A stretch of DNA of 64,000 bases. Origin: Pseudomonadota bacterium. GTDB lineage: Bacteria > Desulfobacterota > Desulfobulbia > Desulfobulbales > Desulfocapsaceae. The translations under genes were made by a program, and so were the position numbers. The stretch spans positions 1 through 64,000 of the forward strand of contig JAHJNL010000055.1 in assembly GCA_018820855.1 (NCBI GenBank), written 5' to 3'. Shown here one piece after another: positions 11,754-28,974 of this stretch; positions within the stretch are counted from its first letter, which is position 1; every line of letters begins with the position of its first letter. Below the pieces are notes generated by a model. That model worked only from the letters and a program-made list of their open reading frames with translations. It did not search any database and was not told where the DNA came from.

Positions 11754-14297
11754 ATGAAAGATATTATTCGGGACCTTGCCAACAAAGATCAACACAACCT
11801 CAAACTCCGGTTTCAGGTTGGCTTAGGGATCATACTTTTCTGCTTTTGCCTTTTCACAACGACCATCATCTATCATTTTCAGAAAAATCTATTGGAAGAA
11901 GAGGCCCTCAGACAAACCGAACTGGTCACGGCCGCCCTGGAGTCGACCCGAGGATATATCAGAGAGGTGCTTCGCCCGCGTATGTATGAAGAATTCGGGG
12001 AAGACCACTTTATTATCGAAGCAATGTCCACCTCCTATATCACCCGAGTCATCATGGATCGTTTTGAAGAAAAAATTCCCTTCTTCAAATACCGACGTGT
12101 TGCCGTCGGTGCCAGGAATTCAAGTTTCGAGGCAAACACGGCAGAACAGAAAATGATCGGCTATTTCCGTGAAAACCCCGATGCACATGAATGGCACGGC
12201 ATGACACGGATGGACTCTGTCCGCTATTACACCCTGTATCGTCCAGTTGTTTTCAAGACATCCTGCCTGCACTGCCATGGGAAGCCAGACGACGCCCCAG
12301 CTGCCATCAATGAATCTTACGGAACCACCCAAGGCTTCTATCGAGAGGCGAACGAAGTTGCCGGTCTTTTTTCCATCTCCATACCTCTCGAAGTAAGCCT
12401 TGATCAAATCAGAGGGACCTCATTTCGAATGTTCGGCATAGTCCTGATCCTGGCACTGCTGCTCTACGGCACAATATGGCTCTTTTTCCACCAACTTATA
12501 ATCACTAACCTGCGTGACCTGGTCACATTATTTCGTACCAGCATGGATGAGAGCAGTGCAACATCATTACCGAAAGAACTCAAAGGACACAGAGAAGAAC
12601 TCGAAGAACTGTTTCACAGTGCCAGAACCCTGATAAGCAGCCTGCAAGACAAACGATCACAACTTGTTGAATATGCGGACAATCTTGAAGAAATGGTCGC
12701 TGAGCGAACAGAGGCATTAAATCTCTCAGAAAACCAGCTGCGAGCTCAGGTTAAGAAAAGGAACAGAGAACTGACACTGCACACAACTCTGACTGGCCTT
12801 ATCACCCGGACAGACACCCTGCAGACCATCCTCCATCAGGTGCTCAATGAAGTTCTGCAGGTTATTCCGGCAAACGGGGCAGGAATTTACCTCTATAATG
12901 ACAAGAGTGATAATTTTGTTCTTCAGTGTTCAAAACAAGCTCCGATGCTATCCGATTCCATCGAACCTGAATTCACCTGTAAATCCAAGCAGTGTGACCA
13001 GGCCCCGGATACGCATAGCGGTAGTTGCGATCATCTGCAGATATCAGTCTCAGAAAATGATAACAGCCTCAATATCCGCATCCCCCTTTGCTGCCGCAAC
13101 CGGCTGCAGGGCATAATGGTTATAACCGAACTCCCCTTTGCAGGCTTAAATGATGCCTTGCAGGATCTCCTTCTCTCCATCGGGCAACAAATCGGCATGA
13201 CCATCGAAAGCCTGCAGAATATGCAAAATTTACGACAAAGCACAGAACTTCTCCAATCAGTCTTTGACGGCATAAGTGACCCGCTCATTCTCCTTGCCCC
13301 GGACGGTACTTTGAAAATGGTAAATCAGGCCTTTCTCTTACGGAATAATCTTCATCTTGATGAGGCTCTGGGGGTGACGGTTGACATGCTTTCCCTGCCA
13401 CAGCAATGTCTTTTCAGCAATCTGGCACTAGACGTTGATCTATCGGCAAAAAAACCACATACAGAAGAGATCCAATTGGATGATGGATCAATTTTTGATG
13501 TGTATTTCTATCCCATTCTCAACACTGACGATTCTGTGCGCGCGATTATCGGTTTTGCTAAAGATGTCACCATTGTCAAAGCAACAGAGCGCCGAATCCA
13601 ACAGACCCAGAAACTTGTCGCCGTGGGCCAGCTGGCTGCAGGTGTTGCGCATGAGATCAACAACCCCCTCGGAGTCATTCTCTGTTACACAGATATTATC
13701 AAAGAAAACAACAGAGACAATGAAGAGATCATTGCAGATATCACAACCATTGAACGCCACGCAGGAAACTGTCGCCGCATTGTCGCAGACCTGCTTGATT
13801 TTGCCCGCAGTAAAGAGTCCCGAATAGACAAACAGGAAGCATCGGTCAATAATACCATCAAAGATGTCCTGGCCATGCTTCGCCCGCAATTCCTGAAAAA
13901 CCAGATCAATCTGGACTGCGACCTGGACCCCGATCTCCCGACCTGTTTCATGGACAGCCGACGCATGCAACAGGTCTTCCTCAACCTGATCATGAATGCG
14001 GAACAGGCAATTGGCAGTCAGGGAAATATCTCTATCAGTACCAGAGCAGAGAGCAACACTATTACTGTAGAGATCAAAGATGACGGCCCCGGAATCAGTA
14101 AAGAGATGATAGACAAAATTTTCGACCCCTTTTTCAGTACCAAAGAACCGGGCCAGGGGACCGGGCTCGGTCTATCAGTCAGCTACGGCATTGTTCGTGA
14201 GCATGATGGAGAAATCAAGGTCCAGTCAACGCCGAATAGAGGCTCACGATTTACTGTTACCATACCTGTAGCAGAGGAGAACTTTAACAATGATTGA
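11754..14297 (+). CDS. Membrane sensor histidine kinase with Tll0287-type CxxCH domain, GAF and PAS
   Basis: 847 residues from ATG 11754, preceded by GGAG with 6-bp spacing; earlier in-frame ATGs lack such a site. Order: membrane segment (about 20-42), extracytoplasmic DUF3365/Tll0287-like domain with CLHCH at 171-175, second membrane segment (about 225-247), coiled coil (about 290-355), GAF-like domain, PAS domain, HisKA with phospho-acceptor His633 in GVAHEINNPL, then HATPase with DDGPGIS and GTGLGLS. The CxxCH could hold a c-type heme and sense redox state or a small ligand. The sensor region aligns with the Ser/Thr kinase-like protein at 3568-5280 (FIIEAMST and CxxCH...DAP...YG...GF in the same order). 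The gene overlaps the regulator gene by 8 bp. Confidence 0.9.
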   Translation: MKDIIRDLANKDQHNLKLRFQVGLGIILFCFCLFTTTIIYHFQKNLLEEEALRQTELVTAALESTRGYIREVLRPRMYEEFGEDHFIIEAMSTSYITRVIMDRFEEKIPFFKYRRVAVGARNSSFEANTAEQKMIGYFRENPDAHEWHGMTRMDSVRYYTLYRPVVFKTSCLHCHGKPDDAPAAINESYGTTQGFYREANEVAGLFSISIPLEVSLDQIRGTSFRMFGIVLILALLLYGTIWLFFHQLIITNLRDLVTLFRTSMDESSATSLPKELKGHREELEELFHSARTLISSLQDKRSQLVEYADNLEEMVAERTEALNLSENQLRAQVKKRNRELTLHTTLTGLITRTDTLQTILHQVLNEVLQVIPANGAGIYLYNDKSDNFVLQCSKQAPMLSDSIEPEFTCKSKQCDQAPDTHSGSCDHLQISVSENDNSLNIRIPLCCRNRLQGIMVITELPFAGLNDALQDLLLSIGQQIGMTIESLQNMQNLRQSTELLQSVFDGISDPLILLAPDGTLKMVNQAFLLRNNLHLDEALGVTVDMLSLPQQCLFSNLALDVDLSAKKPHTEEIQLDDGSIFDVYFYPILNTDDSVRAIIGFAKDVTIVKATERRIQQTQKLVAVGQLAAGVAHEINNPLGVILCYTDIIKENNRDNEEIIADITTIERHAGNCRRIVADLLDFARSKESRIDKQEASVNNTIKDVLAMLRPQFLKNQINLDCDLDPDLPTCFMDSRRMQQVFLNLIMNAEQAIGSQGNISISTRAESNTITVEIKDDGPGISKEMIDKIFDPFFSTKEPGQGTGLGLSVSYGIVREHDGEIKVQSTPNRGSRFTVTIPVAEENFNND

Positions 14298-15711
14298 CAA
14301 CCGTTCCTCACTTCCCCAACTCCTGCTTGTTGACGATGAACCGGACCTGCTCACCGGTCTGAAAAGAAACTTTGCCAAACGACTGCCTTACACAAATGTA
14401 CTGACAGCGGCCAGCGGCAGCGGCGCATTAGAGATACTGGCAAAGGAGAATATTTCCCTGGTCTTGATGGATATCATGATGGGCGAAATGAATGGCCTTG
14501 AGGTCCTTGACCGCATCCACCGCATACACCCGGAACTAACCGTTATCATAATGACCGGATATGGAACTATAGAATTGGCTGTGGATGCCATTCGCCGGGG
14601 AGCATGGGATTTTGTAACCAAGCCCCTGGAACTCGACGGGCTGACCAGAACACTTACAAAAGGCCTGGAGCGAAGCCAACTGCTCAATGAAAACAAAAAA
14701 TTACGCAGCAGGATGTGTTCAGGGGAACCAATCACTGACTTTGTCGGCCAGAGTTCCTCCATGCAGCAGTTATACAAAACCATCCAGACCTCCGCCAACA
14801 GCGAGTATACCCTTTTAATCCGTGGAGCCTCCGGCACAGGCAAGGAACTCTGCGCACAGGCTGTCCATGCCTTGAGCAAGCGATCAAGAAAACCCTTTAT
14901 CATGGTGAACTGCCCGGCAATTCCGGAACATCTGTTGGAGTCAGAGCTGTTTGGCTACCGTAAAGGTGCCTTTACCGGGGCAGACAAAGACCATGCCGGA
15001 CTATTCTTCGAGGCAGATGGCGGCACCATCTGTTTGGATGAAATCGGAGATATCCCGGTCAGCGTTCAGACAAAGCTGCTGCGGGTTCTCCAGGAGCAGG
15101 AGATAAAACAACTCGGGGCAGACACCTCAAGCAAAATCGATGTCCGTATTATTGCCTCAACCAACGCTGATCTGGAGAGCAAAATTAACGAAGGCAAATT
15201 CAGGGAAGATCTTTTTTATCGCCTGGAAGTCCTCACCCTGCGCATGCCGTCTCTTTTCGAAATCAGGGAAGATATTCCTCTGCTTGCCAATCACTTTCTT
15301 AAAAAGGCCCGCATTGAACTGAACAGCAGTGAAAAAGAATTCTCCAAGGCCGCTCTTGAGAAACTCTTAAGGCACAATTGGCCAGGCAATATCAGAGAGC
15401 TGCAGAATGTCATACGTCGTGCAGTCCTCTTCTGCCCAGGCTCTGTTATTGATGCCCAGCACCTCATGATAGAATCGTCATTCTCAACTCCTGATCCCGA
15501 TTTGAGACAGGGGGCAGAGATGAATATTATCCCCTACAAGGAAGCCAAAGATAATTGTCTTGATTCTTTCACCCGGCAGTACGTCTCTACTCTGCTCAAC
15601 AAAAGCAATGGCAATGTCTCTCAGGCAGCACGGTTGTCACACCTCACCAGAGCCGCCCTGCAGAAGATAATGCGCCGATATACCATTGATGGTAATCAGT
15701 TCAGAGAGTAA
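14290..15711 (+). CDS. Sigma54-dependent response regulator (NtrC family)
   Basis: 473 residues: receiver domain with Asp61 (VLMDIMMGE), AAA+ domain with Walker A GASGTGKE (179-186), intact sigma54-contact loop GAFTGA (226-231) and CLDEIGDIP Walker B, then a Fis-type helix-turn-helix at the C-terminus (NVSQAARLSHLTRAALQKIM). It overlaps the cognate kinase gene by 8 bp. It should activate sigma54 promoters; the nearest candidate is at 11554-11572, before the divergent small membrane protein/YeiH operon. Confidence 0.95.
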   Translation: MIDNRSSLPQLLLVDDEPDLLTGLKRNFAKRLPYTNVLTAASGSGALEILAKENISLVLMDIMMGEMNGLEVLDRIHRIHPELTVIIMTGYGTIELAVDAIRRGAWDFVTKPLELDGLTRTLTKGLERSQLLNENKKLRSRMCSGEPITDFVGQSSSMQQLYKTIQTSANSEYTLLIRGASGTGKELCAQAVHALSKRSRKPFIMVNCPAIPEHLLESELFGYRKGAFTGADKDHAGLFFEADGGTICLDEIGDIPVSVQTKLLRVLQEQEIKQLGADTSSKIDVRIIASTNADLESKINEGKFREDLFYRLEVLTLRMPSLFEIREDIPLLANHFLKKARIELNSSEKEFSKAALEKLLRHNWPGNIRELQNVIRRAVLFCPGSVIDAQHLMIESSFSTPDPDLRQGAEMNIIPYKEAKDNCLDSFTRQYVSTLLNKSNGNVSQAARLSHLTRAALQKIMRRYTIDGNQFRE

Positions 15712-18641: not shown

Positions 18642-20021
18642 CTATCCCACATCAATTCCGCTTTTCTCATATTTCTTCAGTTTTCGCCAGAGGGAAACCC
18701 TGTCAATGCCTATGATTTTGGCAGCCTTTGTCTTATTGCCGTCAACGCTTTTAAGGACCGAGAGAATATATTCCCGTTCGTTTTCTTCAAGACTCTTGCT
18801 ATGTTGGTCTGCCTGGAAGTCTGGAATCTGATAATGCGGACTGTTGATAAGATCCGCGGGAAGATGGTGTGGTTGTATTTCTGAGCTGTCACATAGGGCC
18901 AGAGAGCGTTCAATGATATTCTCAAGCTCCCGCGCATTACCGGGGAAATCATATTCCTGCAGCCGCCGGATTGTTTCCGGAGAAATACTTTTGACATGTC
19001 CGATTGGTAGCGAATATTTGGCCAGGAAATAATTAACCAGCAGTGGAATATCGTCTTTTCTCTCCCGGAGCGGAGGGATATGAAGATTGATGACATTGAG
19101 CCGGTAATACAGATCCTGACGGAATGTTCCTTTTTTGACTTCTTCCTTGAGATCTCGGTTGGTTGCAGCCAGCAGACGAACATCTATCGGTATTTCTTTG
19201 GTTCCGCCTACCCTGATAATCTTTTTTTCCTGCAGTACCCGTAATAATTTCACCTGCATAGTGAGCGGCATTTCACCTATTTCGTCAAACAGGACAACCC
19301 CACCATTTGCCGATTCAAGAAGCCCATTACGCATGCTACCGGCATCAGTATAGGCGTCTTTTTCATGCCCGAACAGTTCATTGACCATCAGGTCTTCTGT
19401 CATTGCCCCGCAGTTGATAGGGAGAAAACGTTTATCAGCCCTGGGACTCAATTCATACATTGTCCTGGCTACCAATTCCTTACCGGTTCCGGTTTCACCG
19501 GTGATAAGGATATTGCAGTCCAGCTGGGCAAAATGAGCAATGGAATCCTTAAGCTCTAATATTGCCGGGTTCTGACCAATAAACTGAGTCGTCCCATGTT
19601 GTGCTTTGATCCGCTGCTTGAGACGGCTGATCTCCCGCAACAGCATTGTCTTTTCAGTTGCCCTCAGGACCAGAGTGTGAAGTTCCTTGAGTTTGATCGG
19701 TTTTGGGAGATAATAGAATGCCCCATGAGCCATGGCATCTACAGCAGAGTTTACCGTTGCATAACCGGTGACAATGATAACTTCAATATCAGGATGGAGT
19801 TCTTTGGCAGTTTTCATAACCTGAACGCCATCGACATCACCCATTTTCAAATCTGTTATTACCAGATCAAAATGGGATTTACTGAGCAGGCCTATTGCCT
19901 CGTTACCACTTGTCGCCGTTGTTACCTGAAATCCATGGTGCTCAAGGAAATGAGCAACATTCTGAACATTTATTACCTCATCATCAACCACCAGGATTGC
20001 AATAGTACTGGTATCAGTCAT
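18642..20021 (-). CDS. NtrC-type response regulator with variant GAFTGA loop (DAYTDA)
   Basis: 459 residues from ATG 20021, preceded by AGGTG; it overlaps the kinase gene by 8 bp. Receiver with Asp57 (VITDLKMGD), AAA+ domain with GETGTGKE Walker A (about 175-182), VLFDEIGEMP Walker B and R-finger region, then a Fis-type helix-turn-helix (NKTKAAKIIGIDRVSLWRKLKKY). The sigma54-contact loop, normally GAFTGA, reads DAYTDA (222-227); the central Thr is kept. Some Desulfobacterota regulators tolerate changes here, so loss of activity is not certain. It is the best candidate to bind the TGTTGCA-N3-TGCAACA sites near 21740-21921 and 28215. Confidence 0.92.
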   Translation of the reverse strand: MTDTSTIAILVVDDEVINVQNVAHFLEHHGFQVTTATSGNEAIGLLSKSHFDLVITDLKMGDVDGVQVMKTAKELHPDIEVIIVTGYATVNSAVDAMAHGAFYYLPKPIKLKELHTLVLRATEKTMLLREISRLKQRIKAQHGTTQFIGQNPAILELKDSIAHFAQLDCNILITGETGTGKELVARTMYELSPRADKRFLPINCGAMTEDLMVNELFGHEKDAYTDAGSMRNGLLESANGGVVLFDEIGEMPLTMQVKLLRVLQEKKIIRVGGTKEIPIDVRLLAATNRDLKEEVKKGTFRQDLYYRLNVINLHIPPLRERKDDIPLLVNYFLAKYSLPIGHVKSISPETIRRLQEYDFPGNARELENIIERSLALCDSSEIQPHHLPADLINSPHYQIPDFQADQHSKSLEENEREYILSVLKSVDGNKTKAAKIIGIDRVSLWRKLKKYEKSGIDVG

Positions 20022-21486
20022 TGTTACACCTGAAGGTTTCACTCTGGCCAAGAGAATATTCTTCTTCAAGACCCGTGTGGAGCGGCAGGGTGATGATAAC
20101 TCGAGTTCCCTTTCCTTTTTCTGACTCTACCCGAATTGAACCATTTTGTTTTTTTATAATGCCATAGACAACTGCCAGGCCCAGGCCGGTTCCATTTTCA
20201 GCATTTTTAGTTGTGAAAAACGGGTCAAATATTTTCGGCAGATGCTCTTTATCAATTCCGCTACCCGTATCAGCAACAATAATGATGGCATTCTTGTTGT
20301 TGGCATCCTTTTCTGCTCCGATTACGACCGTACCAGGCGGTTCGGGGATAGCCTGGATTGCATTAATTGTCAGATTCAGCAAGGCTTCGATCATTTTTTG
20401 CACATCTATGAAAAGGATTATATCCTCGGGAATATCAGTCTCCAAATTAATGCCGGACGGAATCTCGCTGGCGACAAGTTGTTGGACCCTCTCGATAACC
20501 TTTGTTAGTTGATAGGGTTGAAGAGAAAATGCATGCGCTCTGGAAAATTCCAGCAGGCCACGAACAATTTCTCCGGCACGATGGGTTTCCTGATTAATGG
20601 TTTCCAGCATCTTTGCGACTAACGGGTTCTGTTCAGCATCAATCTCGGCAAGAGCCAACTGGCAGGATGTTGAAATATTGTTGAGCGGATTATTGATCTG
20701 ATGAGCTGTTCCAGAGGCCAGGGTACCGATTGATGAAAGTTTCTTCACCTGAAAAAGCTGTTCCTGTTGTTCTGCCAGATCGGTAACCATTTTATTAAAG
20801 GCCCGAAATACACTGCGAATCTCACCTTTTTTTTCATCAACCCGCAGCTGGGTAAAGGTTCCGTTTGCAATATCTCTCGCAGCATTCTCAACCCTTTTTA
20901 AAGGCTTTATAATCGAAGTGTAAAGGATGGTGATGGTGAATATCGAGAGAAGAACAAGAAAGATAAACGTTTTTATAATTTGTCCTTTTAATTCAGTTAT
21001 AAAATCGGACATCTTTGCCTGTTCAAACACGACCAGATCTTCGCTGATATTAACAAGGTCCTGCCCCAGACTACGTACTTTTTCCCGTAAAGAACACTCC
21101 ACACCCTCATTTTCCGGGATACATTCTTCTTTAAACTCCCGAAAAGTCAACTTATAGGCCGCCAGTTTAAATGTAAGATTCTGCAAATGTGTCGGCTGCG
21201 GCATTATCTTTAAATCATCGATTATCTGGGGAACTGTTTTCTGGGCCTCATCAATATATTCAATGACTCTGTCAAAATCTTCTTCCTCATGACTAATGAT
21301 GAAGTTTTTTTCATAACGTCGTATTTCAAGACTGAGATTGCTGAGATTACCAGCATGCATCAATACGATGACATCATCGTTAAACCTGTCAAAATCTCTC
21401 AAAAAGGTTACTCCGACAATGATGTAAAAAAGCAGATGCAGGCAAAAACAGCCAGTCATCTTCTGACGCAGATTTAAAAAGAACAT
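20014..21486 (-). CDS. Membrane sensor histidine kinase (4-helix-type sensor, HAMP)
   Basis: 490 residues: membrane segment (about 12-29), a helical extracytoplasmic domain of about 140 residues, second membrane segment (about 170-190), HAMP linker, HisKA with His262 in [12 protein letters not shown], and HATPase with ADTGSGID and [11 protein letters not shown]. The sensor domain contains Cys122 and Cys131, which could form a disulfide. It precedes and overlaps its regulator. A sigma54-type promoter lies about 150 bp upstream on the same strand, which implies positive feedback or control by a related regulator. Confidence 0.92.
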
Positions 21487-21632
21487 AAGGGGACACTCCC
21501 ACTCTGATCAGCTGTAAAGATGGACACAGATAAAAGCATATATGTGTTATTTTCTAAAATAAAAAAGAATTGTTTAATTCATTTGGCACTGAAATACAGA
21601 AGAAATAATTTTGTATCCCACTTACTATCAGA

Positions 21633-21650
21633 AGCAAATTTAAGGCCAAC
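21633..21650 (-). promoter_or_regulatory. Sigma54 promoter for the histidine kinase/response regulator pair
   Basis: On the minus strand GTTGGCCTTAAATTTGCT has TTGGC at -24, TTGC at -12 and exactly 10 bp between GG and GC. The kinase start is about 150 bp downstream. The centre of the long inverted repeat (21740-21807) is about 127 bp upstream of the -24 GG, a normal enhancer distance. Confidence 0.65.
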
Positions 21651-21739
21651 TGAGAAATAAAATAAGATTGACGCAATCCTTCCCTGCCTACAAGATTATA
21701 ACGAGTTTTGTCTCTAAGATACCATATCCGAAGCTCCCT

Positions 21740-21807
21740 GCACATAGTGTTGCATATTAACAACATTGTTGCAATGTGCAATGTTGTTAATATGCAACAC
21801 TATGTGC
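21740..21807. repeat. Perfect 29-bp inverted repeat with 10-bp centre, probable enhancer site
   Basis: The two 29-bp arms (21740-21768 and 21779-21807) are exact reverse complements. The sequence is AT-rich with no terminal T run, so a transcription terminator is unlikely. Each arm contains TGTTGCA or TGCAACA, and the centre contains TGTTGCA-ATG-TGCAATG (21767-21783). It lies between two divergent sigma54-type promoters, as expected for a shared enhancer for a dimeric or oligomeric activator. Confidence 0.9.
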
Positions 21808-21904
21808 AAATATGATGGTTATCACACCATTATTTTATTCGCTCTCCCTGCCATTTCCCCTCTCAAAAGCCCCCTCCTCTTCTTCTGTTCCTCTTCTGGC
21901 AAAC

Positions 21905-21921
21905 TGTTACACCCTGCAACA
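21905..21921. promoter_or_regulatory. Enhancer-like site TGTTACA-CCC-TGCAACA
   Basis: A 7-3-7 inverted repeat with one mismatch, centred 106 bp upstream of the -24 GG of the promoter at 22018. The same pattern (TGTTGCA-N3-TGCAAyA) recurs at 21767-21783 and 28215-28231, in each case before a sigma54-type promoter. Confidence 0.6.
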
Positions 21922-22017
21922 ACAACGTAAAAGTCCCTCAAACTTTCCTCATTTTTTAGGTCCATCTAACAGAGTAAACAGACACCTCAATCACCTTTCA
22001 TCCAACCTGGTGAAAAA

Positions 22018-22034
22018 CGGCATACAGGTTGCAA
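22018..22034 (+). promoter_or_regulatory. Sigma54 promoter for the 38-codon gene and SLC13 transporter
   Basis: CGGCATACAGGTTGCAA matches the -24/-12 pattern: GGCAT, 10 bp between GG and GC, then TTGCA. The expected start is near 22045, giving a leader of about 95 nt before the strong ribosome site of the gene at 22140. Confidence 0.65.
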
Positions 22035-22139
22035 TTTGAATTAAAAATTTGCTCGCAATCAAACTGCTTACCAAGAGGCGAAATACGTTACGAGCCTGGA
22101 ATTGCAAAAGATTTAAACATCTTTTTAAGGAGGAAGGAA

Positions 22140-22256
22140 ATGAAGCAAGAAATACAAAAAAAGAAGAAGGGAGGAAACGTTAACCCGGCGTCCATACCGA
22201 GTTGTCATTATGCTACCGGTCCACCGCCTCTCTCAGAAAAAATGTGCATGTATTAA
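22140..22256 (+). CDS. 38-residue peptide of unknown function
   Basis: The ATG at 22140 follows a very strong ribosome binding site (AAGGAGGAAGGAA), which is the main evidence that this short frame is translated. The peptide has a basic Lys-rich start (KKKKGG) and a C-terminal half rich in Pro, Ser and Cys (IPSCHYATGPPPLSEKMCMY); it has no membrane segment or signal peptide. It is first downstream of the sigma54-type promoter at 22018 and ends 66 bp before the SLC13-type transporter. It could be a small regulator, a metal- or redox-reactive peptide (two Cys, one His) or a translated leader. No family is recognised. Confidence 0.6.
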   Translation: MKQEIQKKKKGGNVNPASIPSCHYATGPPPLSEKMCMY

Positions 22257-22322
22257 CCCTTAGGCATAATAAGATGTCCTATCATTATCAGGAATCAAGA
22301 AAAAAAGGATAATAAGGAAAAA

Positions 22323-24137
22323 ATGACTCTACCAATAATTTTAGTCATGGCCGTTCTGGTCTTGGCGATTCTACTCTTTATTTTTGAGTGGGTGCGTGTC
22401 GATGTCGTCGGTATCATTATGATGATCATGCTGCCCCTGCTCGGTCTGGTTACGCCCAAAGAAGCCATCAGTGGGCTTTCAAGTAATGCCGTTGTTTCAA
22501 TTATTGCCGTTATTATTATCGGTGCAGGCCTGGATAAGACAGGGGCCATGAATCACTTGGCCAGAATCATCCTCAGGTTTGCCGGCAAGAGCGAAAGCAG
22601 AATCATGGTGCTCATCTCCGGTACAGTGGCCTTTATATCCAGTTTCATGCAGAATATCGGCGCGGCAGCTCTTTTCATGCCGGTTTCCAAACGTATCTGT
22701 CGACAGACCAACATCCCGGTTTCCCGAATCCTCATGCCCATGGGATTTTGCGCAATTATCGGCGGCTGTATCACTTTGATCGGATCAAGCCCGCTCATTC
22801 TGCTCAATGATGTAATGAAAATTTCATCGCCGAATGTTGTACCATTTGGCCTTTTTTCCGTGACTCCGGTTGGGTTGTCCTTGATTGTTGCCGCCCTGCT
22901 CTATTTCGTTCTGCTGGGCCGTTTTATTCTTCCAGCCGGAGAAGGTGATGCGGCGGGGAGCGGACCAATGTCCCAGGAACTTGAGAGAACCTACCACGAC
23001 ATAGGTAATCTTTTTGAAATCCAGGTACCTGATTCCTTCGAAGGACCAAAAACTCTTGAGGAACTGGAAATCAGACCCATCTTTTTCACCACAATTCTCG
23101 CCATCGCCAGTAAGGGTGGAATACCTGTTTCTTCCCCTGACTATTCTGACACCATTGAAGGAGGCGATACAATTGCTGTAGAAGGCCCTCCGGACCTGGT
23201 AGCCAAAATGGCCAAATCCTTTGGCTGGATGATCAAAGACGATCTGGCGGTGTTTGCCGAAAGTCTCTCCCCTAACAATGCCGGCATCATGGAGACCATT
23301 ATCACTCCACGTTCTGAACTGGTTGGACATACCCTGCGTTCCTTTTCTTTCAGGAAAAAAAATGGTGTTACGCCACTGGCAGTGTTCCGCGACAACAAGA
23401 CCTTTGTCGGCGACATCTCAACAATGCCGCTGCGGGCTGGTGATGCCATGTTACTGCAAGGTCCATGGGAAAAATTTCATTACCTGAAAGAAAGAACTGA
23501 CCTTGTCTTTACCGAAGAGGTGCAGGGAGAAATTCTCCGAACAGACAAAGTCAAGTTTGCCGTGGGCAGTTTGATCCTGGCTCTGGTCATGACCATTGGT
23601 TTTCACGTCCAGCTTTCCATTGCCCTGCTGACAGGTGCTCTTGCCATGATTCTGACCAAGGTTCTCTCAATTGATGAGGCCTATGACTCAGTTGACTGGA
23701 TGACTGTTTTCCTCCTTGGCGGCCTTATTCCTCTGGGTATCGCTTTTGAAAAAACAGGAGCAGCCAAACTTATTGCAGAAACTATCATGGGTATGATGGG
23801 TGATGTTTCTCCGCTCATTCTCCTGACCGTTATCGGTATTCTCACCTCATTTTTCACTCTGGTTGCCTCTAATGTCGGAGCAACAGTACTCATGGTTCCT
23901 CTTGCCATGAATATGGCCGGTACTGCCGGGGCTGATCCCCGCATAGCTGCCCTGGTGGTTGCTGTTGCCTGCTCAAACACCTTCATCCTGCCCACCCATC
24001 AGGTCAATGCGCTGATCATGCGACCGGGCGGGTATAAGACAAAAGATTACTTCCGGGCAGGAGCAGGAATGACAGTCCTCTACCTCGTAGTAATGATGGC
24101 CTCCATAGCCTTGTTTTACGGTGTTACCGGCAGCTGA
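22323..24137 (+). CDS. SLC13/ArsB-type ion transporter with TrkA-C domains
   Basis: 604 residues. Hydrophobic spans at both ends surround a soluble middle part (about 215-390) that looks like two RCK/TrkA-C domains (GDTIAVEGPPDLVAKMAK and GDAMLLQGPWEKF). Transport-domain features include the re-entrant SSNAVVSIIAVIIIGAGLDKTGA and a second copy ending SNVGATVLMVPLAMNMA. The family moves sulfate, dicarboxylates or related anions, usually with Na+. Here the substrate is unknown, though sulfate is plausible. A terminator follows, and NhaD comes next on the same strand, so Na+ coupling could link them. Confidence 0.85.
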   Translation: MTLPIILVMAVLVLAILLFIFEWVRVDVVGIIMMIMLPLLGLVTPKEAISGLSSNAVVSIIAVIIIGAGLDKTGAMNHLARIILRFAGKSESRIMVLISGTVAFISSFMQNIGAAALFMPVSKRICRQTNIPVSRILMPMGFCAIIGGCITLIGSSPLILLNDVMKISSPNVVPFGLFSVTPVGLSLIVAALLYFVLLGRFILPAGEGDAAGSGPMSQELERTYHDIGNLFEIQVPDSFEGPKTLEELEIRPIFFTTILAIASKGGIPVSSPDYSDTIEGGDTIAVEGPPDLVAKMAKSFGWMIKDDLAVFAESLSPNNAGIMETIITPRSELVGHTLRSFSFRKKNGVTPLAVFRDNKTFVGDISTMPLRAGDAMLLQGPWEKFHYLKERTDLVFTEEVQGEILRTDKVKFAVGSLILALVMTIGFHVQLSIALLTGALAMILTKVLSIDEAYDSVDWMTVFLLGGLIPLGIAFEKTGAAKLIAETIMGMMGDVSPLILLTVIGILTSFFTLVASNVGATVLMVPLAMNMAGTAGADPRIAALVVAVACSNTFILPTHQVNALIMRPGGYKTKDYFRAGAGMTVLYLVVMMASIALFYGVTGS

Positions 24138-24144
24138 TCAAGAT

Positions 24145-24188
24145 GAGCTATTTCGGCAGATCACGTCGGAATAGCTCTTTTTTTTGAG
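24145..24188 (+). terminator. Intrinsic terminator after the SLC13-type gene
   Basis: GAGCTATT (24145-24152) pairs with AATAGCTC (24170-24177), with additional pairing inside, followed directly by a run of eight or more T. It separates the transporter transcript from nhaD. Confidence 0.85.
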
Positions 24189-24244
24189 CTTGGCGGTAAT
24201 ATCTTTTACTTCATTCTAAAATTATTAATTTAAGGATATCTGCA

Positions 24245-25666
24245 ATGAAAATCTTTCTATTGCTCTGCATCACTCTGCTTGGCAGTGCTGGTCAGGCATT
24301 GGCTGCATCTGGCCATGGTGGGGGGGAAACGGCAATGAGCCTGACCGCCACTTCGATGGGATATGCATCTCTGGCTATTTTTGTTCTCGCTTATCTACTT
24401 GTTATTTTTGAGGAGAAAACCCACCTGCGCAAGAGCAAACCGGTAATGTTGGCCGCCGGTGTTATCTGGATACTTCTCGCCATTACCTACCGCATAGCAG
24501 GTATCCCGCCTGAAGAAGCACATACTGCGATTATTCACAACATTACCGAGTATGCCGAGTTGCTCCTCTTCCTGCTTGTGGCTATGACCTATATCAATTC
24601 CATGGAAGAGCGTAATGTCTTTCAGGCCCTGCGTTCTTCGCTGGTTTCCAAAGGATTCTCTCTGCGCATTATTTTCTGGATCACCGGATTTCTCGCCTTT
24701 ATCATCTCACCGGTTGCGGACAACCTGACCACGGCACTGCTCATGGGAGCTGTTGTCATGGCCGTGGCAAAGGACAATAAAAAATTTGTTGCTCTGGCCT
24801 GTATCAATATCGTTGTTGGAGCCAATGCAGGCGGAGCCTTCTCACCCTTTGGCGATATCACCACTCTTATGGTCTGGCAGAAGGGACAGGCAACGTTTGG
24901 CCAATTCTTCTTTCTCTTTGCTCCAGCCTTGCTCAACTGGTTAATTCCAGCAGCCATCATGAGCATCTTTGTCTCCAAAGAGGTACCTAAGGCCCTGGAT
25001 GAAAAGGTCACGATGAAATTTGGTGCCAGACGAATCATGTTCCTTTTTCTCATGACAATCGTTACAGCAGTTTCCTTTCACAACTTTATTGAACTGCCCC
25101 CGGCAGCTGGCATGATGCTGGGGCTTTCCTACCTGGGCTTTTTCTCCTATTACATCAAAATAAGAGAAAAACGTGCTCTTGAGTATGATAAACCCTTAGG
25201 AATTTCCTTCAGTAATCAAGACGACCCCTTTGATATCTTCAAAAAAGTGGCCCGTGCTGAGTGGGATACCCTCCTCTTTTTCTACGGGGTTATTCTCTGC
25301 GTCGGCGGTCTCTCGCAATTTGGCTATCTTGCCCTGGTTTCACACCAGATGTACGATGGTCTGGGTGCCACCTATGCCAATGTCCTCGTTGGAATATTAT
25401 CAGCGATTGTTGACAATATTCCTGTCATGTTTGCTGTGTTGACCATGGATCCCACCATGCCTGTCGGCCAGTGGTTATTGGTTACCCTGACTGCGGGCGT
25501 AGGCGGCAGCCTGCTCTCCATTGGCTCCGCTGCCGGTGTAGCACTCATGGGAACCGCGCGGGGAACATATACCTTTGGTGCCCATTTAAAATGGATGCCC
25601 GTCGTTGCTCTTGGATATGCAGCAAGTATTTTCTGTCATTTATTTATTAACAGTCGTTTGTTCTAA
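24245..25666 (+). CDS. nhaD: NhaD-type sodium:proton antiporter
   Basis: 473 residues with an N-terminal signal-like segment (MKIFLLLCITLLGSAGQALA) and about 12 spans. NhaD hallmarks: SPVADNLTTALLMGAVV, GANAGGAFSPFGDITTLMVW and SAIVDNIPVMFAVLTM. The antiporter exports Na+ (or Li+) in exchange for H+, serving Na+ and alkaline pH tolerance. It follows the SLC13-type gene after a terminator and precedes the receiver-Lon gene, so it may have its own promoter in the 107-bp gap; none was recognised there. Confidence 0.92.
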   Translation: MKIFLLLCITLLGSAGQALAASGHGGGETAMSLTATSMGYASLAIFVLAYLLVIFEEKTHLRKSKPVMLAAGVIWILLAITYRIAGIPPEEAHTAIIHNITEYAELLLFLLVAMTYINSMEERNVFQALRSSLVSKGFSLRIIFWITGFLAFIISPVADNLTTALLMGAVVMAVAKDNKKFVALACINIVVGANAGGAFSPFGDITTLMVWQKGQATFGQFFFLFAPALLNWLIPAAIMSIFVSKEVPKALDEKVTMKFGARRIMFLFLMTIVTAVSFHNFIELPPAAGMMLGLSYLGFFSYYIKIREKRALEYDKPLGISFSNQDDPFDIFKKVARAEWDTLLFFYGVILCVGGLSQFGYLALVSHQMYDGLGATYANVLVGILSAIVDNIPVMFAVLTMDPTMPVGQWLLVTLTAGVGGSLLSIGSAAGVALMGTARGTYTFGAHLKWMPVVALGYAASIFCHLFINSRLF

Positions 25667-25846
25667 AGAGATGTAATATAGGATAGGAAAGTAAAAGGCT
25701 GAAGGTAGAATAATATAACAGAAGGTATTTTGGCCTGTCCGGATAAAGATAATTTCCTTCTCTCATCGGGATCATGTGCACTTCTCTTTTCGGCTTCAAT
25801 CTTCAGCCTCTAGGCTAAGCGTCTGAATAGTTACTCTTTTTCTTGT

Positions 25847-25889
25847 CATGCGAGGGGAGCGATATTGCAAATATTGTTTCCCTCGCATG
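25847..25889 (+). promoter_or_regulatory. RNA hairpin in the lon-like gene leader
   Basis: CATGCGAGGG (25847-25856) pairs with CCCTCGCATG (25880-25889). The interior also pairs to a 3-nt loop, including G-U pairs that exist only in plus-strand RNA, giving about 20 consecutive pairs. A run of seven T follows about 8 nt later (25898-25904), and the start codon is at 25921. It could be an attenuator or a stability or translation element. Confidence 0.55.
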
Positions 25890-25920
25890 CATAAATATTT
25901 TTTTCAACAGATGGATAGAG

Positions 25921-27948
25921 ATGAGTTTTTTTTCAAAAAAAGAACCTGAAGCGAAAACACCTGGATCTGGAGGAGCAATCAGTTCCGGACAGATCGGTGA
26001 TCTAAAAAACAGGGTGGCCGGTACTGACCTGCCACCCTACGTTGCTCACCAAGTAACAACCGAATTGAACCGTCTTGAAAAAACCGATCCAATTACCGCT
26101 GAATTCTCCATCGGCGTAAACTATATCGAATTGCTTCTCTCGTTGCCCTGGTTCCAGGAAACGAAAGATAAACTTGATCTCAAGCGAGCTGAATCCATCA
26201 TGGCCTCTCACCATTTCGGGCTTGAGGGAGTCAAAACGCGGATACTGGAATACCTTGCAGCCAAGACCCTGAAGAATCAGCAAAAATCAAGGATACTGAT
26301 TGTTGATGATGAAGAAATTGCCCGCAATAATCTTCAGCACTACTTCAAGAATATTGGCCATACCGTGCAGGTGGCTGCTAACGGAATTGATGCTCTGCAA
26401 CAGGTTGAAACAAGTGATCTTTTTGATGTGATGATCACCGACCTGAAAATGGATAAGATGGATGGCCTCACCCTTATTGAAAAAATCAGTAAAGTATCTC
26501 CGGAGACCAATGTGATCATGGTTACCGGCTATGCAACAGTGGCAACTGCAGTAGATGCGATGCGCAAAGGTGCAACCCATTATTTATCAAAACCGGTACA
26601 GCTTGATGAACTGAGAGATACGGTGGAAGAGATCCTGCAAAGACAGAAGAAACTGCAGATCAGTCAGGGCCCCGTCCTCTGCTTTTCCGGCCCCCCCGGT
26701 ACAGGCAAAACCTCCATAGGACAGTCTGTGGCCACCTCCCTTGGCCGGGAGTTTATTCGTCTGTCCATGGCAGGTCTCCGTGATGAAGCTGAAATCCGTG
26801 GCCACCGCCGCACCTATGTCGGTGCCATGCCAGGCCGCATTATTAATGAAATTAAACGGGCCGGAGTGACTAATCCCTGTTTCATGCTCGATGAAATTGA
26901 CAAGATCGGCCAGGATTTTCGTGGAGACCCTGCTTCCGTTCTCCTTGAGGTTCTTGATCCCGAGCAGAACGGGAACTTTATGGATCACTATCTTGATATT
27001 CCCTTTGATCTATCCGGTGTCCTGTTCATTGCTACGGCAAATGACATAACAAAACTGCCTGGCCCTCTGCTGGACAGACTGGAAGTCATTGAGTTTTCTA
27101 GCTATTCATCCCAGGAAAAACAGGTTATTGCCAGAAAATATCTTCTGCCCAAACAGTTATCCATCAACGGCTTAAGCGATATAAATCCGCAGATCACCGA
27201 CAGTGCCCTCGATAAACTTATCGTGGAATACACCAGAGAATCCGGCGTACGGGGGCTCAATCGGACAATCGGGACCATCTGTCGCAAACTGGCCCTGCAG
27301 GTCCTGCAAAACGATTCAAAAGAATCTTTGCCGGTTATAGACAAAGATGCCATTGCGCCACTGCTCGGACCGAGAAAATACCGCCAGGAAGCTGCTGAAG
27401 GCGAGGACAAGGTTGGTGTCGTAACCAGCCTGGTCTGGACCCAATTTGGTGGTGAGATTATGTTTATCGAGGCCTTGGCCATGCGAGGCAGCACCCATCT
27501 CATCCTTACCGGTTCACTGGGCGAAGTATTGCGTGAATCGGCGCAGACCGCTTTGAGTTATATCAGAAGCAATGCCGAACAACTTGGTATCGCTCCAGAC
27601 TTCTACGATCATTCCGATATCCATATCCATCTACCTGCAGGCGCAGTTTCAAAAGACGGCCCCTCTGCCGGTGTTGCCATAGCCATTGCCTTGATCTCCC
27701 TGCTCACCGGCCGCCCGGTCCATCGCAACGTATCGATTACCGGAGAGATGACACTGACCGGCCAGGTGCTGCCTGTCGGAGGAATCAGGGAAAAACTCCT
27801 GGCAGGCGTTCGAACCGGTTGCGTGAAGATCGTCCTGCCTGCAAAAAATAAGGAAGATGTGGCCTCATTACATGACGATGTTACAGATCATCTTGAACTG
27901 GTATATGTCGATATGCTCGATGAGGCAATCCCACACCTGCTTACCTGA
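25921..27948 (+). CDS. Lon-type ATP-dependent protease with internal response-regulator receiver domain
   Basis: 675 residues from ATG 25921; the frame is open to 25843, but that part overlaps the leader hairpin. The usual N-terminal Lon substrate domain (about 190 residues) is absent. Residues 40-115 match the Lon helical linker (LLLSLPW, HFGLEGVKTRILEYLA). A complete receiver domain follows (about 122-242: DD129-130, Asp174, Thr202, Lys224), placed exactly before the AAA+ domain (GPPGTGKT 257-264, FMLDEIDKIG). The protease domain is intact, with Ser582 in DGPSAG and Lys625 in GIREKLLAG, 43 residues apart as in E. coli Lon. Phosphorylation could gate proteolysis; this is inferred. It lies in the sigma54/two-component cluster. 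Confidence 0.93.
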   Translation: MSFFSKKEPEAKTPGSGGAISSGQIGDLKNRVAGTDLPPYVAHQVTTELNRLEKTDPITAEFSIGVNYIELLLSLPWFQETKDKLDLKRAESIMASHHFGLEGVKTRILEYLAAKTLKNQQKSRILIVDDEEIARNNLQHYFKNIGHTVQVAANGIDALQQVETSDLFDVMITDLKMDKMDGLTLIEKISKVSPETNVIMVTGYATVATAVDAMRKGATHYLSKPVQLDELRDTVEEILQRQKKLQISQGPVLCFSGPPGTGKTSIGQSVATSLGREFIRLSMAGLRDEAEIRGHRRTYVGAMPGRIINEIKRAGVTNPCFMLDEIDKIGQDFRGDPASVLLEVLDPEQNGNFMDHYLDIPFDLSGVLFIATANDITKLPGPLLDRLEVIEFSSYSSQEKQVIARKYLLPKQLSINGLSDINPQITDSALDKLIVEYTRESGVRGLNRTIGTICRKLALQVLQNDSKESLPVIDKDAIAPLLGPRKYRQEAAEGEDKVGVVTSLVWTQFGGEIMFIEALAMRGSTHLILTGSLGEVLRESAQTALSYIRSNAEQLGIAPDFYDHSDIHIHLPAGAVSKDGPSAGVAIAIALISLLTGRPVHRNVSITGEMTLTGQVLPVGGIREKLLAGVRTGCVKIVLPAKNKEDVASLHDDVTDHLELVYVDMLDEAIPHLLT

Positions 27949-27992
27949 CTAGTTTCTTTTTACAAAAAAATCATAATGTTGCCCCATAACCC

Positions 27993-28025
27993 ACAGAAGG
28001 ATCCGCTGTTGCGCGATCCTTCTGT
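27993..28025 (+). terminator. Terminator hairpin after the lon-like gene
   Basis: ACAGAAGGATC (27993-28003) pairs perfectly with GATCCTTCTGT (28015-28025), followed by CCTTTCTTCCTTT, a moderately T-rich stretch. It ends about 45 bp after the stop codon. Confidence 0.7.
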
Positions 28026-28056
28026 CCTTTCTTCCTTTGCTTCCCGATAAGTCGTT

Positions 28057-28091
28057 TGTTGCATTCTGTTACGCAGTTTCATCCTGCAACA
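28057..28091. promoter_or_regulatory. Distal half-sites of the TGTTGCA motif
   Basis: TGTTGCA at 28057-28063 and TGCAACA at 28085-28091 are separated by 21 bp, upstream of the better site at 28215-28231. They may give extra binding for the same activator, but the spacing does not match the 3-bp gap of the other sites. Confidence 0.35.
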
Positions 28092-28214
28092 ACTTCCTGT
28101 TCTCCGTGACACCGCTTCATTGACAAAACCATCGTATTCCAGACAGTTACCTACAATCACATCCTCTCCCACAGTCAACGACTCTGCTTTTCACACCCTA
28201 TCCAAAAGAGTTGT

Positions 28215-28231
28215 TGTTGCAAGCTGCAATA
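28215..28231. promoter_or_regulatory. Enhancer-like site TGTTGCA-AGC-TGCAATA
   Basis: The same 7-3-7 pattern as at 21905-21921 and 21767-21783, centred 117 bp upstream of the -24 GG of the uspA promoter at 28338. This suggests that one regulator acts on all of these promoters. Confidence 0.6.
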
Positions 28232-28337
28232 ACTCACAGGCTGACTCAAGGCCTGACTCAAAGACAGTTTCAGACGGATCTCACCTGACTATCGCCCAAC
28301 ACACTGTTTTGTTTGCGATAATAACTATTTTTCAGTT

Positions 28338-28354
28338 TTGGCACGACATGTGCA
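28338..28354 (+). promoter_or_regulatory. Sigma54 promoter for uspA
   Basis: TTGGCACGACATGTGCA is a near-perfect -24/-12 element: TTGGCACG, 4 bp, then GTGCA, with 10 bp between GG and GC. The start codon is at 28420, leaving a leader of about 55 nt with the ribosome site GAGAGGAGA. Confidence 0.85.
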
Positions 28355-28419
28355 TTGACTGTATGCAAAGGCACAATCAATAAATATTAACAACCACCTA
28401 CAATAGAGAGGAGAACATC

Positions 28420-28974
28420 ATGGGCTTCACTGACTGGTTCACATTAGGAATGAAAAAAAACAAAGAAGTTAATGTAAAAAAAATCAAAGAAAAATCTATC
28501 GATATGGGTGCAATGGCAGCCGGTAGTCCATCAAACGCTGCTGGAGCCATTGCCAGAGTGATGGACCAGAGAAATACGCCAACAAAGGTTCTTATGATCC
28601 AAGACGGAGAATATCTTCAACAAGTCACTGATTACGCTATGAAAATGGCACAGCGACTTGACTGTGAAATCATCGCCCTTGATATTACGGACAGACCACT
28701 TCAATTTACAGGTGACAGAAGAGCAAGAGAAAGTGACCGCTTCATTGATATGGCCAGGACAAATGCCGAAAAATTTACCAGCCAGGCCAAGGCGTGCGGA
28801 ATCAAAGTCGAACATATTATGGATATCGGTGACTCAGAAGAGATCATTGCTCGTGTCAGTGCTGCAGATGCAGGTATTCGCTACGTATTAAGCAAACCTG
28901 ACGAAGAAGCAATCAGAACCGATCAGGAACGACCCCATGTTCCGGTCTTTGATCTCCACTGTTCACGCTTATAA
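28420..28974 (+). CDS. Universal stress protein-like, sigma54-controlled
   Basis: 184 residues. The first 50 or so are a Lys- and Ala-rich extension (KKNKEVNVKKIKEKS, then AAGSPSNAAGAIARVM). A UspA-like alpha/beta domain follows (KVLMIQDGEYLQQVTDYAMKMAQRLDCEIIALDIT to YVLSKPDEE). The classical ATP-binding glycine motif is not evident, so it is probably a non-nucleotide-binding member. It has a near-consensus sigma54 promoter and an enhancer-like site, and is followed 26 bp later by a small membrane protein with its own good ribosome site. Role in the stress response is inferred from family and context. Confidence 0.8.
   Translation: MGFTDWFTLGMKKNKEVNVKKIKEKSIDMGAMAAGSPSNAAGAIARVMDQRNTPTKVLMIQDGEYLQQVTDYAMKMAQRLDCEIIALDITDRPLQFTGDRRARESDRFIDMARTNAEKFTSQAKACGIKVEHIMDIGDSEEIIARVSAADAGIRYVLSKPDEEAIRTDQERPHVPVFDLHCSRL

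Follow-up and report, generated by a model that had tools for sequence, protein, structure and literature searches.

The window examined here, a stretch of 64,000 nucleotides from the genome of a sulfur-cycling bacterium of the Desulfocapsaceae, harbors a 651-base intergenic region from which two sets of genes run in opposite directions. On the minus strand are a membrane histidine kinase (20014..21486), comprising an HBM-type sensor with HAMP, HisKA and HATPase domains (Pfam), and a response regulator (18642..20021) that we assign to the NtrC family on its receiver domain, sigma54 AAA+ domain and Fis-type HTH (Pfam). The order on the plus strand is a 38-residue ORF (22140..22256), an SLC13/CitMHS-type anion permease with TrkA_C domains (22323..24137; Pfam, NCBIfam), a NhaD antiporter, a Lon-type protease (25843-27948) with a response-regulator receiver domain inserted ahead of its AAA+ domain, and a gene (28420-28974) that we label UspA-like from our reading of its sequence. 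The small ORF, positioned between the plus-strand sigma54 promoter and the permease gene, which is the first long gene of this operon, has a C-terminal HYATGPP-type motif and occurs in most close relatives; it matched no family in Pfam or NCBIfam. The adjacency of the Lon-receiver protease to the SLC13 and NhaD genes is kept in relatives. A second histidine kinase/NtrC-type regulator pair is located a few kb off, at 13536-15711, with a normal GAFTGA loop.

Two predicted sigma54 promoters flank the center of the intergenic region, at the places given by the initial annotation; both have the form GG-N10-GC with conserved flanking letters, and both are kept in most relatives. The minus promoter (21633..21649, minus strand; AGCAAATTTAAGGCCAA as read on the plus strand), with its -24 GG at 21647-46 and its -12 GC at 21635-34, was recovered by scan in 11 of 13 relatives and is predicted to drive the kinase and regulator genes, while the plus promoter (22017..22033; ACGGCATACAGGTTGCA), with GG at 22019-20 and GC at 22031-32, precedes the small ORF and the SLC13, NhaD and Lon-receiver genes and is conserved among relatives as ACGGCATACNGGTTGCA. 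The proximal site of the plus promoter, designated dyad 4 (21905..21921, plus strand), reads TGTTACA-CCC-TGCAACA, exactly the 7-3-7 site originally reported, and is present as GTTACATCCTGCAAC or a similar sequence in most relatives. It lies 111 nt upstream of the plus promoter element in the window; across species this distance is usually 98-111 nt. One-mismatch copies of this site are found elsewhere in the same genome (G000), outside the window, at C28:40939 and C43:36165.

Between these promoters is an inverted repeat (21739-21808) that is as real and as perfect as had been described, with arms of 30 rather than 29 bp: the left arm (21739..21768, plus strand) is complementary at 30 of 30 positions (100%) to the right arm (21779..21808, minus strand), with a 10-nt spacer. 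No other close perfect inverted repeat of the window comes near this length, the runner-up having 16 bp, and the chance expectation for arms of at least 30 bp is about 1e-11 given the local base composition. The TGTTGCA/TGCAACA half-sites noted within it are present and fall into three ordered dyads on the plus strand, namely dyad 1 (21749..21764, GTTGC-N6-ACAAC), dyad 2 (21768..21782, GTTGC-N5-GCAAT) and dyad 3 (21783..21798, GTTGT-N6-GCAAC), the last being the exact reverse complement of the first. A search for the exact TGTTGCA-N3-TGCAACA pattern found no match in the genome because dyad 4 reads TGTTACA; a relaxed TGTTR search found the real set. With TGTTRCANNNTGCAACA and up to two mismatches allowed, the window holds 9 matches against 0.99 expected, and none of 100 shuffles (0/100) reached 9.

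To follow the dyads across species, we used an oriented alignment of 14 species and dyad scans over 20 species in all, with duplicates removed. The position and spacing of dyad 1 are conserved, and in most species dyad 2 starts 19 nt past the start of dyad 1 and dyad 3 starts 15 nt past the start of dyad 2. This 19+15-nt spacing was seen in 13 of the 20 species, including the window, G006 and G018, and an 18+15-nt spacing in 2; in a further 4 the scan missed the middle dyad, with the outer two still 34 nt apart, and in the remaining one the first two dyads alone were recognised, 19 nt apart. Both the alignment and the scans reveal that the sequence between the dyads varies among species while the spacing holds. 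Dyad 1 is 106-122 nt from the minus promoter element across species (116 nt in the window), and dyad 4 follows dyad 3 at a distance of about 108-113 nt in most species and of 123 nt in the window. Dyad-site enhancers of sigma54 promoters are located 100-150 bp upstream (PMC7057263), a range that the distances of dyads 1 and 4 to their promoters fit. On comparison of the sequences, the palindrome is three adjacent GTTGC-N5/6-GCAAC dyads and not one long operator. The proposal that the 29- or 30-bp repeat itself is the unit of recognition is not supported; relatives keep three shorter dyads at fixed spacing instead.

The initial annotation had also read the region as controlling genes in both directions from sigma54 promoters, with half-sites for the neighboring regulator, and this is borne out by the promoters, the dyads and the sigma54-activator domain and Fis-type HTH of the regulator at 18642-20021. 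Pattern counts over 56 genomes showed that so short a motif cannot delimit a regulon across a whole genome, and we therefore took into account only the sites beside the locus and at the UspA-like promoter. Upstream of the UspA-like gene, a second array of two dyads 18 nt apart (28057..28091, plus strand; the same array in 9 relatives), a proximal dyad (28215..28231, plus strand) and a conserved GG-N10-GC sigma54 promoter (28339..28354, plus strand; TGGCACGACATGTGCA) make up a design conserved in 10 species including the window. Since the dyads and a sigma54 promoter recur at 28057-28354, the set looks like a local regulon of the adjacent HBM kinase and NtrC-type regulator. In a more distant species (G005), the regulator homologue is 57% identical and the dyads adjoin its gene, two of them 18 nt apart and one about 120 nt off, with an SLC13 gene nearby. 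The dyad sites are thus conserved together with the regulator gene among the species compared, G005 included. The UspA-like array and the G005 dyads tie the motif to the regulator at 18642-20021, and from neighborhood and co-conservation we consider this protein the probable binder of the dyads.

A feature of this regulator that bears on its function is the sigma54-contact loop (residues 222-227), which reads DAYTDA and not GAFTGA, with positions 2, 4 and 6 kept. All homologues with at least about 78% identity have DAYTDA, and farther ones have DAFTGA, EAFTGA or DAYTGA. As most GAFTGA substitutions abolish sigma54 activation (PMC2941729) and the glycine-to-aspartate changes at loop positions 1 and 5 are fixed in the clade, it is conceivable that the regulator binds the dyads without activating sigma54, acting as a repressor or leaving the sites to another activator. 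We regard this as rather unlikely, given that: 1) relatives commonly have aspartate at position 1, in the form DAFTGA; 2) tyrosine at position 3 and aspartate at position 5 are active in NorR, where F264Y is partly active and G266D fully active without signal (PMC2941729); and 3) species with the DAYTDA loop still have the sigma54 promoters and the enhancer-like spacing. Two of the DAYTDA changes correspond to F264Y and G266D, mutations of NorR that keep activity and bypass repression, and because NorR tolerates both, the DAYTDA loop would be compatible with sigma54 activation by analogy with NorR.

If the dyads are the old and conserved elements, the perfect symmetry calls for a separate account. 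Among the species compared, perfect arms of at least 20 bp occur in the window (30 bp), G006 (28 bp) and G018 (20 bp) only, and these three form one clade on the kinase tree (support 100/99); six additional species have no arm of at least 14 bp, and elsewhere no comparable arm was found at the array. The long palindrome is thus shared with two sister species only, and all other compared species lack it and keep both operons, a result that runs against the repeat as an operator in its own right and that the initial annotation had itself named as refuting. Within the clade, both sides were altered with pairing kept at eight base pairs, seven of them inside the continuous arm of the window (-9, -7, -6, -3, -1, 11 and 17, numbered from dyad 1) and the eighth, -13, outside it. 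All of these compensated pairs lie outside the GTTGC/GCAAC letters, and recognition by a protein therefore does not account for them.

The direction of the change can be read from the outgroups. The right arm of the window matches the left arms of G001, G023 and G008 at 22, 21 and 16 of 26 nt, respectively, compared with 12, 12 and 11 of 26 nt for their right arms; in addition, dyad 3 is 16 nt long in the clade of the window, with the 6-nt spacer of dyad 1, vs. 15 nt with a 5-nt spacer in outgroups. These two features indicate that the right arm was replaced by the left arm copied in inverted orientation, and what the comparison reveals, arms made identical through directional copying from one of them, is the pattern expected of a template switch. 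Template switching at quasipalindromes copies one arm onto the other (PMC8794818, PMC7202029) and is known to generate multi-base compensated changes (PMC8794818). We surmise that the symmetry most likely came about recently, as a side effect of such arm copying during DNA replication, and not through selection for a giant operator. The initial annotation saw no supporting feature for a recombination product; the clade-specific homogenisation of the arms and the compensated changes outside the recognition letters now provide such features. The sequence AGGGCA, which G018 carries on its right flank and G006 on either side, suggests on our reading of the three sequences that later copying also proceeded from right to left in G006. 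With the palindrome in only three species, the number of copying events is not countable.

The same compensated changes, which match the arms in three species with covarying pairs outside the recognition letters, could reflect selection for the perfect palindrome, extruded as a hairpin or cruciform that serves as a supercoiling-sensitive switch or an insulator between the divergent promoters; the single-stranded DNA fold is indeed very stable (-33.8 kcal/mol, z -11). We find this improbable, as other species keep the operons, promoters and dyads without the long palindrome, the left-over-right direction of change fits a copying mutation and the outer flank in G018 is unpaired. Less probable still is a combined scheme in which the dyads seed repeated template switching, and the palindrome so kept by mutation extrudes a hairpin that competes with hexamer assembly and chooses between the divergent operons, with DAYTDA as a bypass-form activator. 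An RNA hairpin (attenuator, terminator or small RNA) would also account for a perfect stem with compensated changes but is very improbable: other species have no such stem, an Rfam search of 21400-28450 gave no match, and the palindrome, being upstream of both promoters, lies in neither transcript. A transposon-derived (MITE-like) insertion or recombination site, brought to mind by a long, perfect, intergenic inverted repeat, can be dismissed almost entirely, because the repeat is single copy in its own genome (a search with the whole 651-base intergenic region returned as its sole other match its own inverted copy) and the region aligns without interruption to the three-dyad array that all relatives share, which means that no insertion took place.

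Our preferred interpretation, which we hold to be likely, is therefore a shared enhancer of two divergent sigma54 operons, with dyads bound by the neighboring regulator and a symmetry that arose by template-switch copying. From the dyads, their spacing and conservation and the promoters, all read directly from the sequence, we infer a scheme of binding, hexamer assembly, looping and activation as follows. The NtrC-type response regulator would bind the three dyads of the palindrome as well as dyad 4. Located at about -135 to -170 relative to the minus promoter, the three-dyad array most likely accommodates three regulator dimers, which would assemble into one AAA+ hexamer and, from about -150, activate the operon of the kinase and the regulator itself. 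From about -130 relative to the plus promoter, dyad 4 would activate the transporter operon, with the array probably helping via looping. A further copy of the dyad/promoter design would activate the UspA-like gene. Activation should not need the 30-bp mirror symmetry. From the covariation of the arms and its direction, likewise read from the sequence, we postulate that in the ancestor of the three sister species dyad 3 was overwritten by the left arm, copied in inverted orientation together with dyad 1, and that further template-switch events since then have kept the arms matched. The presence of an HBM sensor next to an anion permease suggests that the signal of the kinase may be a small anion.

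A close parallel to this arrangement is NorR of E. coli, likewise a sigma54 activator adjoining a divergent operon, for which formation of the active oligomer requires three enhancer sites between norR and norVW (PMC2941729). NorR senses NO and contains a GAF domain, whereas the regulator at 18642-20021 carries a receiver domain, with an HBM kinase encoded next to it; the dyad sequence also differs, and here three dyads are packed within 50 bp with a fourth by the target promoter. Similarities also exist with the sigma54 two-component regulons of Desulfovibrio vulgaris, in which NtrC-type response regulators have short palindromic sites upstream of -24/-12 promoters, made up of inverted repeats of 4-6 bp placed 3-8 bp apart (PMC4641369, PMC3333781). 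A search of the running text of both papers gave no GTTGC/GCAAC-type motif, and in the text of PMC4641369 no anion transporter, antiporter, Lon or UspA appeared as a target. Our wider literature searches likewise gave no match for this motif or gene set. The NtrC-type regulator HupR of Rhodobacter capsulatus has a TTG-N5-CAA dyad resembling those described here but, unlike the proposed system, is not known to depend on sigma54. As for the palindrome, its history resembles quasipalindrome template-switch mutation, in which an imperfect inverted repeat is perfected by arm copying with multi-base compensated changes (PMC7202029, PMC8794818); it differs in that the copying is seen in an evolving bacterial enhancer, the dyadic sites themselves being the putative quasipalindromic seeds.

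On this sequence comparison, the locus belongs to an ordinary class of control regions but has evolved in an unusual way: its operators are the dyads, and the palindrome is a lineage-specific product of copying. A natural operator that looks impossibly long and perfect may thus be explained by short dyads at fixed spacing and by arms matched through copying in replication, which also serves as a warning that compensated changes alone are no proof of a functional hairpin. For the regulator family, an enhancer of three dyads with strict 19+15-nt spacing, possibly for one hexamer, would be a test case for ring assembly by bEBPs, in a regulator clade that naturally carries GAFTGA changes known as NorR bypass mutations.
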